Positions 11,066 to 48,094 of a stretch of DNA of 64,000 nucleotides are shown piece by piece. How positions within the stretch are numbered: position 1 is the first letter of the stretch; every line of letters starts with the position of its first letter. The notes under the pieces are model-generated. The model was not told the origin of the DNA. It saw only the letters and a list, made by a program, of their open reading frames with translations, and ran no database searches. Location of the stretch: the NCBI GenBank assembly GCA_017161655.1, contig JADFCV010000001.1, forward strand, positions 342,164 to 406,163, written 5' to 3'. Position numbers and translations under genes: made by a program. The stretch is from Candidatus Sumerlaeota bacterium (GTDB lineage Bacteria > Sumerlaeota > Sumerlaeia > Sumerlaeales > Sumerlaeaceae).

Positions 11066-12343
11066 CTATTCGCTGAGCTCAACGACAAAAAACTTTGTCT
11101 TACCAGCCTTAAGTTTGTAAACACCCGCAACGAGCGGCATCCGAGCAGACGATGGCAAAACTGTATCATCATCCAGTTCAATCGGCTGACTTGGCGGCTG
11201 ATCAAACACTTTCACGCCCCCTTGCTGGATGAGTCGCTGCGCTTCGCGAGCTGAAGCGGCGGCTCCCGTTGCCGTAAGGACCTTTATGAGATTCGGCGTT
11301 TCAGCGAGACTAAAACGATATTTGTCAGCTGTTTCTTCAGGAAAAACACGGAGGCTGAACCGGGAACGGAATTCTTCAGCTTCACGCTCGGCTGCTTGCG
11401 AACCATGGTACAGTGATACTATGGTTCTGGCGAGCAACTCTTTTGCGTCGCGAGGATGCATTTCTCCGGATTGCACACGTTCACGGATGGCCCTTGTCTC
11501 CGCAGGTGAGAATCCAGCGGCCAGTTGAAAGTAATCCCACATAATTTCATCAGGGATGCTCATGGCTTTGCCGAACATGTCGCGCGGCGGTTCTGTGATC
11601 CCAATGTAATTGCCCAGGCTCTTGCTCATTTTGTTGATGCCATCGAGACCCACGAGCAACGGCATGGTCATGATGCATTGGGCCTCCATTCCTGCTTCCT
11701 TCTGAAGCGTTCGGCCTACTAACAAATTGAACTTTTGATCGGTTCCGCCAAGCTCGATGTCGGCCCGAATAGCAATAGAGTCGTACCCTTGGAGCAACGG
11801 ATAAATGAATTCGTGCAGGTAGATGGGGACCTCACCCTCGAACCGGCGATGGAAATCCTCGCGTTCAAGCATTTGCGAGACGGTGAATTTGCTCATGAGT
11901 TCAATGGTGGCGGACACATCCATTTTTTCGAGCCATGTCGAATTGAACACGACCTCCGTACGCTCGCGGTCGAGAATCTTGAAGATTTGATCCAGATACG
12001 TACGTGCGTTTTCGAGAACCTGCTCTTTTGAGAGCCGGGGGCGAGTCGTGTTCTTGCCGCTTGGATCGCCGATTCGAGCTGTGTAGTCCCCTATGAGGAA
12101 AACCACTTGATGCCCAAGATCTTGAAACTGCTTTAGCTTCCGGATGGGGACACTGTGTCCTAGATGAATATCCGGAGCAGAAGGGTCTGCTCCATATTTA
12201 ATTCGGAGGGGGCGACCTTCTCTTTTGGAACGAAGGAGTTTGTCGACAAATTCGTCGAGCGGCAGGATTTCGACCGTATTCGAAGCGAGGATTTCGTATT
12301 CCTCGCGAATCTCTGCGGGTATCACTAATGTCGTTTCACTCAT
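11066..12343 (-). CDS. tyrS: Tyrosyl-tRNA synthetase
   Basis: 'IKYGADPSAPDIHLGHSVPIRKLKQFQDLGH', 'KMSKSLGNYIGI', C-terminal S4-like domain. Confidence 0.95.
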   Translation of the reverse strand: MSETTLVIPAEIREEYEILASNTVEILPLDEFVDKLLRSKREGRPLRIKYGADPSAPDIHLGHSVPIRKLKQFQDLGHQVVFLIGDYTARIGDPSGKNTTRPRLSKEQVLENARTYLDQIFKILDRERTEVVFNSTWLEKMDVSATIELMSKFTVSQMLEREDFHRRFEGEVPIYLHEFIYPLLQGYDSIAIRADIELGGTDQKFNLLVGRTLQKEAGMEAQCIMTMPLLVGLDGINKMSKSLGNYIGITEPPRDMFGKAMSIPDEIMWDYFQLAAGFSPAETRAIRERVQSGEMHPRDAKELLARTIVSLYHGSQAAEREAEEFRSRFSLRVFPEETADKYRFSLAETPNLIKVLTATGAAASAREAQRLIQQGGVKVFDQPPSQPIELDDDTVLPSSARMPLVAGVYKLKAGKTKFFVVELSE

Positions 12344-39305: not shown

Positions 39306-40649
39306 ATGTTCAAGAAAATCCTCATAGCCAATCGGGGTGAAGTTGCCCTGCGGATTATCCGAGCCTGCAAGGAGCTGGGTATACGGACTGTCGCAGTGTA
39401 TTCGGAAGCGGACGCAAATTCGCTTCATGTCAAGTTTGCGGATGAGGACGTATGCATTGGTCCAGCCCCGAGTTCGGAGAGCTATCTCAACATTCCCCGT
39501 ATCATCAGTGCTGCGGAGATCACTGACGCAGAAGCGATCCACCCCGGCTATGGATTTCTTGCTGAAAATGCGGAATTTGCTGAACTTTGCGAGACCTGTA
39601 AAATTAAGTTCATTGGTCCTTCGCCCGAAGCTATCAGACGGATGGGCGACAAAGCGGAGGCCAAGCGCACAATGCGAGAAGCTGGAGTCCCGTGTATTCC
39701 GGGCAGTCCCGGGCTTGTAACGGATCTAGCTGAAGCACGTGCCATCGCGGACGAAATAGGGTACCCGGTCATCATCAAAGCCGCGGCGGGAGGGGGAGGC
39801 CGGGGAATGCGGGTAGCCCATACCCCTATTGCGCTTTCAACTTCGTTTGTCACGGCGCAATCCGAAGCTGAGAAAGCTTTTGGAAATCCGGGAGTCTATA
39901 TCGAAAAGTTTATAGAGAATCCTAAACACGTCGAGGTGCAGATCCTCGCGGATGAACATGGCAACGTCGTCTACCTCGGCGAACGTGACTGTTCTGTCCA
40001 GCGACGCCATCAGAAACTCATTGAAGAAAGTCCATGTCCTATTCTCGACGACGAGACCCGGCGCAAAATCGGTGAGGCCGCAGTTCGAGCTGCGCAAGCT
40101 GTTGGCTACGCCAATGCTGGGACCATTGAATTCCTCCTGGATAAAAACAAGAACTTCTACTTCATGGAAATGAATACCCGCATCCAGGTTGAGCATCCCG
40201 TGACGGAACAAGTCACTCTCTTTGATTTGGTGCAGGCACAAATCCGAATTGCAGCGGGTGAGAAACTGCCGATCAGACAAGAAGACATAAAGCTTATTGG
40301 CCATTCCATCGAGTGCCGGATCAATGCGGAAAACCCAGAGAAGGGATTTATTCCGTCGCCTGGGCGGATCACAACTTATCACGTGCCCGGCGGGCCGGGG
40401 GTACGTGTGGACTCGCATTGTTACCAGGAGTACGTCATTCCGCCGTTCTACGATTCTATGATTGGGAAGCTCATCACCTGGGCTCCGACTCGCGAGGAGT
40501 GTATTGCTCGCATGCGGCGTGCCCTCGACGAGTTTGTCATTGAGGGAGTTGCGACTACCATTCCATTCCATCGCGCTGTGATGGACAGCGACGAATTCTT
40601 GCGTGGGACATTCGGCACGAGCTTTGTTGAGAATTTCTGGAAAAAATAA
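39306..40649 (+). CDS. accC: Acetyl-CoA carboxylase biotin carboxylase subunit
   Basis: '[36 protein letters not shown]', '[14 protein letters not shown]', '[18 protein letters not shown]'. Confidence 0.96.
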
Positions 40650-40703: not shown

Positions 40704-42803
40704 CTACCGGACGATGTCTTCTCCGGTGATTTTGTCGGCGATGGCTTTGGGCACTTTGTCGTAATGCGAGAACTGCATCGTGTACGTGGCTCGGCCTTGT
40801 GTCCGGCTACGAAGATCCGTTGCGTAGCCAAACATCTCGCTCAAGGGAACATTAGCTCGGACGACCTGGTAATTCGCACGTCTCATCGTTTCCTCGATCT
40901 TACCCCGACGCGCAGTAAGGTCGCCAAGGACGTCTCCAAAGAACTCTTCTGGAGTCACCACCTCGACAAGCATGATAGGCTCAAGCAGTTCCGGTGCGCA
41001 CTTACGTGCCCCTTCCTTAAAAGCAATGCTGCCCGCGAATTCGAAAGCAAGCTCACTCGAGTCCACTGGATGGAACGAACCATCATAGAGGGTAACTTTG
41101 ATATCTACCATGGGATAGCCCGCAAGCACGCCCGTTTTCATGGCGTTGACCACGCCTTTCTCGACCGCCGGGATATACTCTTTCGGAATTATTCCGCCAA
41201 CAATATCGTTAACAAATTCAAATCCGGACCCAGGGGGCATGGGTTCTATACGCAGCACCACGTGGCCATATTGCCCCTTGCCGCCACTTTGGCGAATGTA
41301 TTTGCCTTCCGCCCGATCAATAGATTTTGTAATCGTTTCGCGATAAGCCACCTGGGGCTTCCCAACGTTAGCCTCGACGTTGAATTCTCGGCGAAGGCGA
41401 TCTACAATGATTTCTAAGTGAAGCTCTCCCATACCGCTCAGGATCGTTTGATTGGTTTCGTTGTCGGTCCGTACGCGGAAGGTCGGATCCTCTTCCTGCA
41501 GGCGTGCCAACGCCGCGCTCAGTTTGTCCTGGTCCGCTTTCGTCTTAGGTTCGACCGCAATGTGGATGACCGGCTCGGGGAACGACATAGGTTCGAGAAG
41601 TATCGGGTGATCCGGATCAGCAAGCGTGTCGCCGGTCTGCGTATGTTTTAGGCCCACCGCTGCTGCAATGTCACCTGTCCGCACCTCGTCGAGCGGTTCG
41701 CGGTCATTTGCGTGCATGAGCAAAATGCGTCCAATGCGCTCGGTCTTGTCCTTCGTGCAATTTAAGACGTACGAGCCTGTTTTCATGACGCCGCTATAAA
41801 CTCTAAAGTAAGTCAATTTCCCTACGTGCGGGTCGCTCATGATCTTAAAAGCGAGCGCGGAAAAGGGTTGATTGTCGTCGGGAAGACGCTCCTCAGGCTC
41901 GCCAGTTTCTGGGTTTTCTCCTTTTACTGGCGGCAGATCGACAGGTGAGGGTAAGTAATCGACTATCGCGTCGAGTAACGGTTGAACCCCCTTGTTTTTG
42001 AAAGATGAGCCGCAAAGCACCGGCGTGATTTTGGCCGCGAGGACGCTTTTGCGGATAAGCGGCTTTAGTTCCTCAGGGGAAAAATCGTGATTCTCGGCCA
42101 GCAAATACTTGTCCATGAACTGTTCGTCGTATTCAGCGATGGATTCAAGCATCTTTCCGTGCCATTCCATCGCAAGCTCTCGGTACTCGTCAGGAATCTC
42201 TGTGACCTGAAATTCGCGTCCTTTTGACGGATCATCACCAAGCGGCCAAATGTAGGCACACATATCGACGAGGTCGACCACTCCCCGGAAAGTATCCTCC
42301 ACACCGATTGGGATCTGAATGGGTACTGGATGACAGCCCAGGCGCTCACGCATCATTTCCACGGTGCCAAAGAAGTTTGCTCCTACACGATCCATCTTGT
42401 TGATAAAGGCAAGTCGCGGAACACCATATTTATCGGCCTGGCGCCAAACCGTTTCGCTCTGAGGCTCAACCCCGCCTACAGCACAGAAAAGAGCGATAGC
42501 TCCATCGAGCACGCGGATCGAGCGTTCGACTTCCACCGTGAAGTCCACGTGGCCAGGTGTGTCGATGATGTTGATCCTGTGGTCTTTCCAGGTGCATTGA
42601 GTTGCTGCTGAAGTGATCGTGATGCCGCGTTCTTTCTCTTGTTCCATCCAGTCCATTTCGGCCGCACCCTCATGCACTTCACCGATTTTATAGGTTCGGC
42701 CGGTATAAAAGAGGATGCGTTCGGTTGTTGTCGTCTTGCCCGCGTCTATATGGGCCATAATGCCGATGTTTCGCATTCGGCTTAGAGGTGTTGTCCTAGG
42801 CAC
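40704..42803 (-). CDS. fusA: Elongation factor G
   Basis: '[25 protein letters not shown]', '[23 protein letters not shown]', '[12 protein letters not shown]', full ~700 aa length. Confidence 0.95.
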
Positions 42804-42977: not shown

Positions 42978-45071
42978 CTAATTCTGGCGCAGTCCGAGTT
43001 TTGTGCGCTGACGGACCTTCTGGAGAGCAAGCGTAAGTTCAGGAATCTGCAGAATAAACGAGACAAAAACATAAACACCTAGACCAATGACTGAGGCCAC
43101 TAAGAGACGAACAAGCTCGTCAAGCTGAAGTGCTGCGAACCAGCCTCGGCGATGCGGGCTCGTGCCAATCTCGAATCGGACACTGAGATTCTCGACTGGC
43201 GCACGTACGATTGCAACCAAGTAGGCTGGCTCCTTCAAAGCGGTCGAACTAGGTTGCCTTGCTCTGTGAACGGTGATCAGCAATTCGCCTTCGTGCTTTT
43301 CGCGATCAAAGACGAAATGCGATACCGCAAGTGACGCAGTGGTGCTTCCGCGGGGGGAGAAAACCACGGCAACACGGGATTTGGTAAAGTCCACGGGGGG
43401 TGGAGGCGTATCATCACGCGCTATCAATTGCCAAAACTCTTTCAGTTCTTCAGGAGAATGGAGTAGCAGGACGCCCCCAGCGTCATAGCGGGCGCTCACG
43501 TGACCGGGAAACTGCTCGCCGCGCTCGATGACGATGAGGGGAGAGCGCCCGAGTCTCTGAAACGCGAGGACGACAAGCGACATCACGCATGCCGCCGCTA
43601 GCATTCTCCAGATGGTCGTGAGATCGCGAAGTCCATCTTCTACAGAGAGCCGTCTGTTCAGAATAAAGTAAGAGAGGAAAGTTGTGACGCAATAAGTCAC
43701 AGAGGCTGCAATGGGAACGCAAAGGATACTCAAAGCTGGGTAAAAGGCAAGCATGAGCCCTATCGAAATCAACACCCCGACGATGTTGATCCACATGGGG
43801 GTGCGGGTGTCTTGCTGAGCGTAAAAACCGCGACTGGCAAGAATGACAAGGGAGTAGGGAAGAATCGAAAGGGCGTAGACGGCGAGAAAACGTGCTGTCA
43901 GTTGTGTGTTCGCGTATGTGAATTGTCCTCTCTCGAAAATGACGCGGACAATTGGTTCGGCGAGGACTATTAGAAGTACGATAATGGGCAGAAGGACGAA
44001 AACCGTCCAGCGCGTGCCAACAACAAGCGAAGCGAGAAAGTCTCGCTTAGCTCCCTTGGCCGCATGCTCGGCAAGAACCGGATACAACACGGTTGCAATC
44101 GAGACAGCAATAATTCCGTAAGGCATCATGATGAGCTGGAAACAAAACGTGTACGTCGTAAAGCCGCTACCGACCGTGTAGAGAAGGTTCGATCGAACAA
44201 GGGTAGCCAGTAGATTAGCAAGGCCAACGCCTAGTACCGGCAACCCCAGGCTGAAAACGGAACCTATGAGAGGATCCCGCAGACTAAACTGTGGGCGCAT
44301 TGGCCAGCCAACAGCGAGAAGCCATGGCACCTGACAGAGTGCCATGGCCGCGATACCCAAGGTTGTTCCTATGGCAAGCCCCGTGATGCCGATAAGCCCA
44401 AAGTGATAAAGGAGAAGTGTGCCTATGACGACGAGATTGTTGAGGATCGGGGCTGCTGCTGTGATAGCAAATACCCCTCGCGCATTGAGAATCGCCATGA
44501 AAACAGCGTTGAGGCCGTAGAAAAACATCTGCGGTGCAAAAAAACGGAAAAAATACGTTGCGAGTTCCCGGCTTTGTTCAGCGTGAACACCCTTGCCCAA
44601 GTGAGTGAGCGACTTGACGATGGCGGGGGAAAACACAATGGCTAAAGCCGAGACAAAAGCCAGAATAACCCCAACATAGCCTAGTAGCAGATTTGCTACG
44701 CGCCAGGCCTCAGCGGAGTTTTTTCCATGACGTTGCTGCGCCTCCACAAGCAAGGGAATGAGGATTGCGCTTAGCATTCCCCCAATCACAAATTCATACA
44801 CAATGTTGGGAATCGTGTTGGCGAGCTGGTAAGCGTCGTCAAAACGTCCGCTTCCAAGCACTGCGGCAAACGCCGAAACGCGAAGCAGCCCAGTGATTCG
44901 GCTGAGCAGGGTAAGAAGAGAAAAAGCTAATGTGTTTTTTGCAAGCTGACTCACCGCGTCTGACAGCTCGTGCTTCGATGTTTCTGAGGTCAAACGTTTT
45001 CCGCGTCGGTAGAGTGTGGCTGAGGACGCAACACACGGGGCTTTGGAATTCATTGCGTAACAAGAGCTCAT
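42978..45071 (-). CDS. murJ: MurJ/MviN lipid II flippase with extra C-proximal soluble domain
   Basis: 'TLLSRITGLLRVSAFAAVLGSGRFDDAYQLANTIPNIVYEFVIGGMLSAILIPLL', many TM helices; ~130-aa hydrophilic insertion before last TM. Confidence 0.9.
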   Translation of the reverse strand: MSSCYAMNSKAPCVASSATLYRRGKRLTSETSKHELSDAVSQLAKNTLAFSLLTLLSRITGLLRVSAFAAVLGSGRFDDAYQLANTIPNIVYEFVIGGMLSAILIPLLVEAQQRHGKNSAEAWRVANLLLGYVGVILAFVSALAIVFSPAIVKSLTHLGKGVHAEQSRELATYFFRFFAPQMFFYGLNAVFMAILNARGVFAITAAAPILNNLVVIGTLLLYHFGLIGITGLAIGTTLGIAAMALCQVPWLLAVGWPMRPQFSLRDPLIGSVFSLGLPVLGVGLANLLATLVRSNLLYTVGSGFTTYTFCFQLIMMPYGIIAVSIATVLYPVLAEHAAKGAKRDFLASLVVGTRWTVFVLLPIIVLLIVLAEPIVRVIFERGQFTYANTQLTARFLAVYALSILPYSLVILASRGFYAQQDTRTPMWINIVGVLISIGLMLAFYPALSILCVPIAASVTYCVTTFLSYFILNRRLSVEDGLRDLTTIWRMLAAACVMSLVVLAFQRLGRSPLIVIERGEQFPGHVSARYDAGGVLLLHSPEELKEFWQLIARDDTPPPPVDFTKSRVAVVFSPRGSTTASLAVSHFVFDREKHEGELLITVHRARQPSSTALKEPAYLVAIVRAPVENLSVRFEIGTSPHRRGWFAALQLDELVRLLVASVIGLGVYVFVSFILQIPELTLALQKVRQRTKLGLRQN

Positions 45072-45124: not shown

Positions 45125-46363
45125 TTGGCCGTGGGAACAGCTGAGGTCCGAATGCCAAAATTAAGCGAGTCCATGACCGAGGGAAAGGTCCTGCATTGGG
45201 CAGTGGGTGTTGGCGATTTTGTTTCCGCCGGCGATGTGCTTGGGGAGGTAGAGACTGATAAAGCAAACATGGAGCTCGAGGCTTCTGAGCCAGGCTACGT
45301 GGCCGAAATTCTTGTTCCAGTTGGTAGTGTTGTCCCTGTAGGCACGCCGCTCATAAGGCTGGTGAGTAGTCTGGAAGAGCTAGGCGATCGCGTCTCTTCT
45401 CCTCACATCGCAGTTGAGGCGGCAGAAGCATCCTGCGAGGTTCTGGCTACAACTGATCTGACTTCGCCAGAGAGGGAGGGCAGAGAGCAAATTCTTCCCA
45501 ATGTCTCTCCAGTTGCTGAGGAGCTAGCTCAGCAATTGGGCTTGGATCTGAACGCGATTGTTGGCAGTGGGCCTGGTGGGCGCATCATGAAACAAGACGT
45601 ACTTCGTGCGGCTGCACGACATCGCTCAAGCTCCGAAAATTCTGCTACGCGCGACCAAACTGCCATTATAGAGCTTCCAGAGCTTACTGAACACGGGACT
45701 ATTTCCGAGCCGAGCCAACCTGTCGATGCCGATGAAGAACTCCACATCGTTCCTGTCTGCGTTGAAACGGTAACTTTGCGCTCGCACATTGTGGGGGAGT
45801 CGCTAATCGGAGCTCTCGCTGCGATCCTTAACCAGATGCAACTCACCCACCGCTTGCATTGGGACGATTTACTGCCCCTCGTCGCAGGGCGAGCTTATGC
45901 CATTGCCTTGAAGCAGGCTCAAAGCCATAATTTGAAAGATTCATTTTCCGCAGAGGCCGTGGCCGGCACGATTGCCATTGGTGTGGGGCCGACCGGAGGG
46001 CGGAGATATCCCTTACTTCATTCCGTCGCAGCTCTTCCTCTTTCGGCCATCATCACCACATTTGCGGAACTGCGCGAAAAGGCTTTAGCGGGGACGTTGC
46101 GCAGTGAAGAGTGTCGTGGAGCACAACTGGTTGTAGAGTCCCTAGGAACAACAGGGGCTGCGCTTAGTGCTGTTCATTTGAAGGAAGGTTCATCACCCGT
46201 GGTTTTCGTCAGCCGTATTTGCGAATCAGAGCTAAGTATGTCTTTGGTTGTAAGAGCTTCGCTCGAGACTGTTGGTGCATGGAGCGAAATTCACGACCGA
46301 GCTTGTTTGATTCTAAGGAATTCTTTGCTTCTCGCGGAGTGTTTTGAGAATTGCGAGCAGTGA
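45125..46363 (+). CDS. 2-oxoacid dehydrogenase E2-like protein with lipoyl and peripheral-subunit-binding domains and a degenerate acyltransferase domain
   Basis: Lipoyl domain 'MPKLSESMTEGKVLHWAVGVGDFVSAGDVLGEVETDKANMELEASEPG'; PSBD 'VSPVAEELAQQLGLDLNAIVGSGPGGRIMKQDVL'; C-terminal domain lacks HxxxDG. Start TTG 45125 or GTG 45131. Confidence 0.85.
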   Translation: MAVGTAEVRMPKLSESMTEGKVLHWAVGVGDFVSAGDVLGEVETDKANMELEASEPGYVAEILVPVGSVVPVGTPLIRLVSSLEELGDRVSSPHIAVEAAEASCEVLATTDLTSPEREGREQILPNVSPVAEELAQQLGLDLNAIVGSGPGGRIMKQDVLRAAARHRSSSENSATRDQTAIIELPELTEHGTISEPSQPVDADEELHIVPVCVETVTLRSHIVGESLIGALAAILNQMQLTHRLHWDDLLPLVAGRAYAIALKQAQSHNLKDSFSAEAVAGTIAIGVGPTGGRRYPLLHSVAALPLSAIITTFAELREKALAGTLRSEECRGAQLVVESLGTTGAALSAVHLKEGSSPVVFVSRICESELSMSLVVRASLETVGAWSEIHDRACLILRNSLLLAECFENCEQ

Positions 46364-46367
46364 TTTG

Positions 46368-47147
46368 ATGGACATCAGAGTGCTAACGAATCTCGACCTC
46401 ACCAATCAGCAGCTTTGCCCTGGTTCGGGGGAGATTCTTTTCGAGGACTCGGGCTTGAAGGCTTATTGGTTGGGGCGTCTGGAGTACGAGCGAGGCGTGG
46501 CCATCATGGAGTCTTTTTTGCGCTCTAAGCTCGCAGGTGGTCTGGAGGATGGCTTTTTCTATCTCGAACACGATCCTGTGATCACCTACGGGCGCGCAAC
46601 CCCGCTGGCACATCTGCCATCAGCTGACTTAAGAATTCCGTGTGTCCAGGTCTCGCGCGGCGGACTGGCAACTTACCATGGGCCCGGACAGTTGGTTGGG
46701 TATATCGTTCTTGATCTGCGTCGCCGTGCTTCAGGCGCTGCCCCAGACCTTCACGATTTTCTTCGCGGCGTGGAAGAAGGGATCTCTGCCTATCTCAATG
46801 AGGAGTGGAATTTGCCCGCAGGAAGCATTTCCGGCAAAACTGGTGTCTGGATTCTCGACCCTTCGAAACCTAGAAAGATCGTGTCAATTGGAATTGGTGT
46901 AAAGCGTTGGGTGACTTACCATGGCTTTGCCCTCAACGTAACCACCGAACTTGATGTATTTTCCCATTTCGTTCCGTGTGGTCTTGAGAACGTGACAATG
47001 ACAACGATTGCGAATGAACTGGAGCAGAGGGGGCGAAAGGCCAATCAGTCGTTTGAGTTAAACGCCGTCGCCAGATTGCTTCATCCGTATGTGATGTCCG
47101 CACTGCGCCAGCGTGGCTGGTGCTCTGAGGAGGGCAGCAAGTGCTGA
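46368..47147 (+). CDS. lipB: Octanoyl-[acyl carrier protein]:protein N-octanoyltransferase
   Basis: 'VQVSRGGLATYHGPGQLVGYIVLDLRR', 'KTGVWI', 'SIGIGVKRWVTYHGFALNV', 'FVPCGLENVTMTT'. Confidence 0.93.
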   Translation: MDIRVLTNLDLTNQQLCPGSGEILFEDSGLKAYWLGRLEYERGVAIMESFLRSKLAGGLEDGFFYLEHDPVITYGRATPLAHLPSADLRIPCVQVSRGGLATYHGPGQLVGYIVLDLRRRASGAAPDLHDFLRGVEEGISAYLNEEWNLPAGSISGKTGVWILDPSKPRKIVSIGIGVKRWVTYHGFALNVTTELDVFSHFVPCGLENVTMTTIANELEQRGRKANQSFELNAVARLLHPYVMSALRQRGWCSEEGSKC

Positions 47148-48094
47148 ACAATTCCTCAATCAGTTCGCATGCGATACGTCGGCACCCCGAATGGATTCGA
47201 GCAAAGATGCCCGGAGTGGGGGAGTTTGATTACACTCAAAAGGTTCTCCGCGAAACCCGCCTCCACACAGTGTGCGAAGAAGCGCAGTGTCCAAACCGGA
47301 GCGAGTGTTACGCACATCGAACCGCAACGTTCATGATTTTGGGCAACGTCTGCACGAGGCGATGTGCATTCTGCGCTGTGCCCCAGGCTATTCCCGCCGC
47401 CCCGCCTGATCCTGAGGAACCAGAGCGGCTGGCAGAGGCTGTCGCGCGCTTAGGGCTCCGTCACGTCGTGATTACGAGTGTCGATAGAGACGACCTGCCA
47501 GACCAAGGTGCGCAGCACTATGTCCGGTGTGTGGAGGCCATCGTGTCACGAGCACCTGGCACTCGGGTCGAACTCTTAATTCCAGATTTTCGCGGTGATG
47601 AGCTGGCTCTTCGAACGGTCCTGAGTGCTCCGATCGACGTCCTCGGTCATAACATCGAAACCGTGCCACGGCTGTATCCTGTTGCCCGGCGTGGAGCTCG
47701 TTATGCTCGGTCTGTGATTTTATTAAGCCGTGCCAAAGAACTCCGCCCCAGCATTCTAACGAAAACGGGTTTGATGTTGGGATTGGGTGAGCGTGACGAG
47801 GAAATTGAAGCTGTTCTCGCCGATTTACGTGATGCGTGCGTGGATATTCTGACCATTGGCCAATACTTGCAGCCGACGCCGACGCAACTGCCAGTTAGCA
47901 GATACCTTTCACCGGCCGACTTTCAGCGCTGGCGCGAGCGAGCTTTGCGCATTGGATTCCCGTGGGTTGAAGCGGGACCGCTGGTTCGGAGTTCGTACCA
48001 TGCCTGGCAGCAGACAGAACAAGTTCGTGCTCTGACTGCTGTTCAAGATCACGTTGCAGGCGCACCAACTTGTGGATCGGCTAATGTGAAATGA
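47141..48094 (+). CDS. lipA: Lipoyl synthase
   Basis: 'CEEAQCPNRSEC' and radical SAM 'CTRRCAFC', 'GQYLQPTPTQLPVSRYLSPADF', terminal 'RSSYHA'; GTG start overlapping lipB. Confidence 0.95.
   Translation: MLNNSSISSHAIRRHPEWIRAKMPGVGEFDYTQKVLRETRLHTVCEEAQCPNRSECYAHRTATFMILGNVCTRRCAFCAVPQAIPAAPPDPEEPERLAEAVARLGLRHVVITSVDRDDLPDQGAQHYVRCVEAIVSRAPGTRVELLIPDFRGDELALRTVLSAPIDVLGHNIETVPRLYPVARRGARYARSVILLSRAKELRPSILTKTGLMLGLGERDEEIEAVLADLRDACVDILTIGQYLQPTPTQLPVSRYLSPADFQRWRERALRIGFPWVEAGPLVRSSYHAWQQTEQVRALTAVQDHVAGAPTCGSANVK

Follow-up and report, generated by a model that had tools for sequence, protein, structure and literature searches.

A catalytically degenerate E2-like protein encoded with lipB and lipA in Sumerlaeota: a candidate dedicated lipoyl carrier

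Why would a genome that encodes canonical 2-oxoacid dehydrogenase components carry, directly ahead of its genes for lipoyl cofactor assembly, a further E2-like protein that lacks the catalytic residues? The question is raised by a 64,000-nucleotide stretch of DNA (the window), part of a Sumerlaeota (BRC1) metagenome-assembled genome, in which a gene here termed pseudo-E2 encodes a lipoyl domain (LD), a peripheral-subunit-binding domain (PSBD) and an inactive E2-fold domain (Table 1).

The pseudo-E2 and its setting

The domain order of the window protein is that of the canonical E2 of 2-oxoacid dehydrogenases, but HxxxDG, S/TxxN and the N-terminal arm of the E2 core are missing, and the best NCBIfam match, TIGR01349, reaches 124 bits against a family cut-off of 445 bits. 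Specifically, alignment to canonical E2s places VRASLETVGA opposite YDHRVIDG, such that both the His and the Asp are absent, and VVESLG opposite TISNLG. No HxxxDG-like peptide was found in any of the six frames between positions 45701 and 46500, and a catalytic motif hidden in another reading frame was rejected on these grounds. With respect to the start of the protein, the frame as called opens with TTG at 45125; an alternative GTG at 45131, which follows AGAAGGAAGGGG, is the likelier true start.

An AlphaFold2 model built from five related sequences gave pLDDT values mostly between 78 and 93 over residues 214–404, a short loop excepted. When the modelled C-terminal domain was searched with Foldseek, the best PDB matches were E2 catalytic cores (E about 2e-10, TM to target about 0.6–0.7), and the Pfam 2-oxoacid_dh model (PF00198) gave a sub-threshold match to residues 284–368 (21.0 bits; cut-off 23). 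Since the predicted structure matches E2 cores and the catalytic residues are gone, this domain is predicted to have kept the E2 fold and lost the chemistry. An earlier, sequence-only reading of this DNA had described a catalytically degenerate E2-like protein with an intact LD (ETDKA), an E2-like C-terminal layout without DHRxxDG, VESLG in place of S/T-x-x-N, no HRVVDG-like peptide in an alternative frame and a gene abutting lipB and lipA, and in all of these particulars it is borne out.

The lipB ATG lies 4 nt after the pseudo-E2 stop codon and, given this short gap and the overlap of lipA with lipB, pseudo-E2, lipB and lipA have the appearance of a single operon. The upstream neighbourhood of murJ, EF-G and accC is common to the window genome and two relatives (G002 and G005), and murJ is also found in a third (G003).

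Table 1. Features of the window and of related loci in the Sumerlaeota family
Feature	Coordinates	Strand	Remarks
accC	39306-40649		Conserved neighbour
EF-G	40704-42803		Conserved neighbour
murJ	42978..45071	-	Conserved neighbour, divergent
Pseudo-E2 gene (LD, PSBD, inactive E2-fold domain)	45125..46363	+	412 aa
LD, residues 5-80	45137..45364	+	Pfam Biotin_lipoyl 2.8e-21, residues 7-79; lysine K46 in ETDKA
PSBD, residues 127-160	45503..45604	+	Pfam E3_binding 4.3e-13
E2-fold C-terminal domain	45749..46339	+	Without catalytic residues or N-terminal arm
VESLG	46133..46147	+	S/T-x-x-N-L-G expected (alignment)
VRASLETVGA	46250..46282	+	Aligned to the YDHRxxDG active site
lipB, octanoyltransferase	46368..47147	+	TIGR00214, 129 bits, cut-off 83.55
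lipA, lipoyl synthase	47141..48094	+	TIGR00510, 385 bits, cut-off 310; overlaps lipB end
LplA-like gene next to aceE	L128 8688-12242; G001:C39, G003:C32, G005:C1		LplA-like protein of L128 at 11496-12242
Family E2o without PSBD	L129 7397-8671; L197, L200, L201, L203, L205, L207		

Variation across the family and origin of the locus

Pseudo-E2s were found in six genomes of the Sumerlaeota family, namely the window genome and five relatives (G001/SKW119, G002/HGW-BRC1-1, G003/SKW162, G005 and G006/SSF23), the proteins of these relatives being 29–42% identical. HxxxDG is absent from all six, and the degenerate state is a conserved trait. The S/TxxN segment has one exception, the G006 protein, which still has TITNLG. 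The lysine context ETDKANME is invariant in the six. In the loci retrieved from other phyla no pseudo-E2 was found; every E2 there that is complete at its C-terminus retains the His. Several Chloroflexi loci (L043, L045, L054, L058 and others) encode E2s with the motif DHRxLYG, in which the Asp of HxxxDG is replaced by Tyr and the His is kept.

Compared with its same-genus copy, the window protein is 68% identical in the LD, 68% in the PSBD and 38% in the inactive domain; for the two canonical E2s, catalytic-domain identity within the genus is 88–92%. For the inactive domain pN is 0.43 and pS 0.75, with synonymous divergence saturated, and in simulations of neutral drift to the observed divergence the 197-codon domain stayed free of stops with P about 0.002 per lineage. 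The excess of pS over pN and the low probability of a stop-free frame under drift indicate that the inactive domain is still under constraint, as judged from its sequence.

In two further family genomes (G004 and G007) the corresponding place is taken by a bare LD of 85–88 aa. The 88 aa LD of G004 directly precedes lipB-lipA, and the order in G007 is an 85 aa LD, a pseudo-E3 gene (below), lipB and lipA. Because these two genomes have the LD alone in the same place, the LD, whose lysine lies in ETDKA or EADKA in every case, is the only part universal to the eight family genomes. The bare LDs are unplaced in the LD tree, and their orthology to the pseudo-E2 LD rests on position and motif. Seven of the eight genomes (five of the six with a pseudo-E2) have the LD-bearing gene at the head of the lipB-lipA cluster; the exception is G006, where lipB-lipA lie on another contig.

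Two other stand-alone LDs were observed. G004 encodes one of 101 aa (L209 3787-4092, minus strand) away from lipB-lipA, after a 674 aa dehydrogenase-E1-like gene. A genome of another family, G010 (96% complete), encodes an 80 aa E2-type LD beside lipB-lipA (L160 7705-7947, minus strand); it contains GcvH and an E3-type protein, and no E2 catalytic domain was found in it.

In G002, G003 and G006 the gene that follows the pseudo-E2 encodes a relative of dihydrolipoamide dehydrogenase, here termed pseudo-E3, as does the gene after the bare LD of G007. As regards E3, the earlier statement that no E1 or E3 genes lie nearby holds for the window genome but not for the three relatives with an E3-like gene directly after the pseudo-E2. 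All four pseudo-E3s share with dihydrolipoyl dehydrogenase (E3) the first FAD motif and TIGR01350 (lipoamide dehydrogenase) as best NCBIfam match. Unlike E3, they score below the TIGR01350 cut-off and have lost the NAD motif, the Asp in the second FAD motif, the His-Glu dyad at the C-terminus and the CxxxxC disulfide, with GGTCLNVGCIP changed to GGAxxHExxxP such that both redox cysteines are gone and a His-Glu pair (HE) is invariant at the old disulfide site. In a tree the four group together on long branches, and only that grouping is supported. The soluble transhydrogenase SthA, suggested as their source by a shared His and Thr at the disulfide site, was rejected, as each of the four is matched best by the lipoamide dehydrogenase model. 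Pseudo-E3 was not among the hits in the window genome, G001, G004 or G005; elsewhere in the window genome the dimerisation domain was found only in the canonical Lpd and a CoA-disulfide-reductase-type protein.

With respect to origin, other phyla have functional clusters of the form E2-E3-lipB or E2-E3-lipA (for example L038, L085, L089, L091, L097 and L103), from which we infer that the pseudo-E2 locus is probably what remains of an E2-E3-lipB-lipA operon that lost its dehydrogenase function. In the LD tree, E2s of pyruvate dehydrogenase (PDH) operons from other phyla are closer neighbours of the pseudo-E2 LDs than is the AceE-type E2p of the family itself. The source would have been a PDH operon of the E1-alpha/beta type; the E2 acyltransferase and E3 dehydrogenase chemistry would then have been lost in a lineage with a separate AceE-type PDH, and the LD retained.

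A carrier role for the lipoyl domain

Canonical E2s, E1 and E3 are present elsewhere in the window genome. Across the family, canonical AceE-E2p (PDH) and SucA/E2o (OGDH) enzymes are encoded elsewhere in seven of the eight genomes, as is a canonical GcvH (7/8), and all eight contain LipB together with one LplA-like protein (single-domain in the five checked). In four of the seven genomes with aceE, the LplA-like gene is its immediate neighbour and is transcribed divergently. The exception among the eight is G007, in whose assembly (66% complete) no E2, AceE, true GcvH or working Lpd/E3 was found, and which contains the LD, pseudo-E3, lipB, lipA and the LplA-like gene. These absences may reflect an assembly gap; we estimate the chance of four separate loci missing together at about 1% if the losses are independent.

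The explanation that we favor, with a probability of a little under one half, is that a relic of an E2 gene now serves the neighbouring LipB and LipA as a dedicated lipoyl carrier, possibly as a relay hub. We infer this role for the LD from the sequence comparisons above: the LD is the sole element in all eight genomes, its lysine context is invariant, it leads the lipB-lipA cluster in seven of them, and the pseudo-E2 frame has been maintained after catalysis was lost. The co-occurrence of canonical E2p and E2o enzymes with LipB and an LplA-like protein also fits. Mechanistically, LipB would octanoylate the LD lysine, and LipA would insert sulfurs into the octanoyl group on the LD. More speculatively, the LplA-like enzyme may then move lipoyl groups from the LD to the working E2 proteins, in a relay whose hub would be of E2 type instead of GcvH type, and the folded pseudo-E2 and pseudo-E3 domains, equally speculatively, may still hold the lipoyl arm.

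In Bacillus subtilis and humans, an established lipoyl relay runs through GcvH and an LplA-like amidotransferase (PMC7253636). The role proposed here resembles that of GcvH (B. subtilis) and GCSH (human), on which LipA finishes the cofactor before LplA-like transfer, and an acceptor encoded together with an octanoyltransferase and a lipoyl synthase fits such a hub. The pseudo-E2 LD would differ in being an E2-type carrier in a family where seven of eight genomes also have a canonical GcvH. Several observations weigh against the carrier role. LipB and LipA could lipoylate the E2 proteins directly, as in Escherichia coli, which would make a hub unnecessary; LplA-B-type second genes are also present in some relatives without a dedicated LD; lipB-lipA are on a separate contig in G006; and in G007, if the absences are real, there is no relay target and the LD would have a function of its own. 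The dedicated lipoyl-bearing scaffold of the sequence-only reading comes close to our preferred explanation, although the pseudo-E3, the bare-LD relatives and the E2-E3-lip clusters had been missed; its suggestion of non-canonical acyl transfer found no support.

Alternative readings and implications

The G007 gene content also suggests a function independent of 2-oxoacid dehydrogenases and glycine cleavage. It is possible, though we consider it unlikely, that the lipoyl carrier and the dead E2 and E3 folds form a lipoyl-assembly platform for LipB and LipA with such independence. A similarly doubtful proposal would have the LD serve its own pathway as a redox or sulfur carrier, with the pseudo-E3 as a repurposed flavoprotein partner and the pseudo-E2 as a scaffold. 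As a precedent, LbpA of Hdr-like sulfur oxidation is a lipoyl protein that functions apart from the classical enzymes (PMC6067878), and with sLpl(AB) and LipS1/S2 it also exemplifies a dedicated lipoyl protein whose gene lies with those for lipoate assembly. That no other lipoyl-requiring enzyme is apparent in G007, that G010 has its bare E2-type LD next to lipA without an E2, and that the pseudo-E3s keep the first FAD motif and the invariant HE are all consistent with this proposal. However, LbpA is GcvH-like and encoded with shdr and lipS1/S2, whereas the window LD is E2-type and sits with lipB-lipA, with no hdr genes seen; no genes for sulfur oxidation or another candidate pathway were seen in the conserved neighbourhoods, and the pseudo-E3, without NAD motif or redox disulfide, is missing from four of the eight genomes.

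Across the family the pseudo-E3, the PSBD and the catalytic domain have been lost in a mosaic pattern, and the inactive domain evolves far faster than canonical E2 catalytic domains; both observations could instead point to a decaying operon whose parts are being lost lineage by lineage with no selected function left. We regard this as distinctly unlikely, as the frames are open in every genome despite saturated synonymous divergence, drift would seldom have left the domain without a stop, and the LD lysine context and the pseudo-E3 HE (4/4) are invariant.

Eukaryotic pyruvate dehydrogenase provides known examples of pseudo-E2s, and why these are inactive has been called unexplained (PMC10156792). 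The eukaryotic E3-binding protein (E3BP; protein X, PDHX) has the same E2-like layout, with LD, PSBD and a dead catalytic domain, and by the criteria of that study (PMC10156792) the window protein could be a bacterial analogue that joins an E2 core and recruits E3 through its PSBD, for instance for E2o. All seven family E2o proteins lack a PSBD (the E2p proteins scanned have one), the PSBD of the pseudo-E2 is as conserved as its LD, and the Foldseek matches of the modelled domain include the E3BP structures 6h60 and 7r5m. Nonetheless, the PSBD, earlier described as intact, keeps its fold-defining residues but has lost the conserved basic pair of helix 1, whose charged side chains recruit E3 (PMC9974300). 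Usually RR or RK, this pair reads EE in the window protein, and none of the six pseudo-E2s retains it intact; 46 of 50 canonical E2s and all seven family E2p proteins possess it. The pseudo-E2 further differs from PDHX in its linkage to lipB-lipA rather than to aceE or sucA and in the pseudo-E3 of three relatives. G004 has an E2o without PSBD and yet only an LD, and G007 keeps LD and pseudo-E3 with no E2 found. The broken pair in six proteins and the two relatives without a PSBD make an E3BP role improbable.

Finally, an active acyltransferase with a site rebuilt from other residues, or an assembly artefact, is scarcely credible even though the E2 fold is partly predicted with confidence, since the pseudo-E2s share no common replacement for His, Asp and S/TxxN (opposite HxxxDG, each of the six has a different stretch), and sequencing or assembly error is ruled out by the same loss in five independently assembled relatives, one of which (G005) is a single contig of 3.29 Mb.

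As far as our literature searches reach, no report of a bacterial pseudo-E2 tied to lipB-lipA was found, and the Sumerlaeota paper that was found mentions pyruvate dehydrogenase and not this arrangement. Within that reach, the pseudo-E2 is a protein of a known kind, and what is new is its setting with cofactor-building genes rather than with a dehydrogenase. In genome annotations, pseudo-E2 and pseudo-E3 genes of this type should not be taken as evidence of a second pyruvate dehydrogenase. The mosaic of full, partial and bare LD versions within the family provides natural experiments on which part is needed, and if the LD is indeed a dedicated carrier, the lipoyl hub of these bacteria would be of a kind absent from the literature found.
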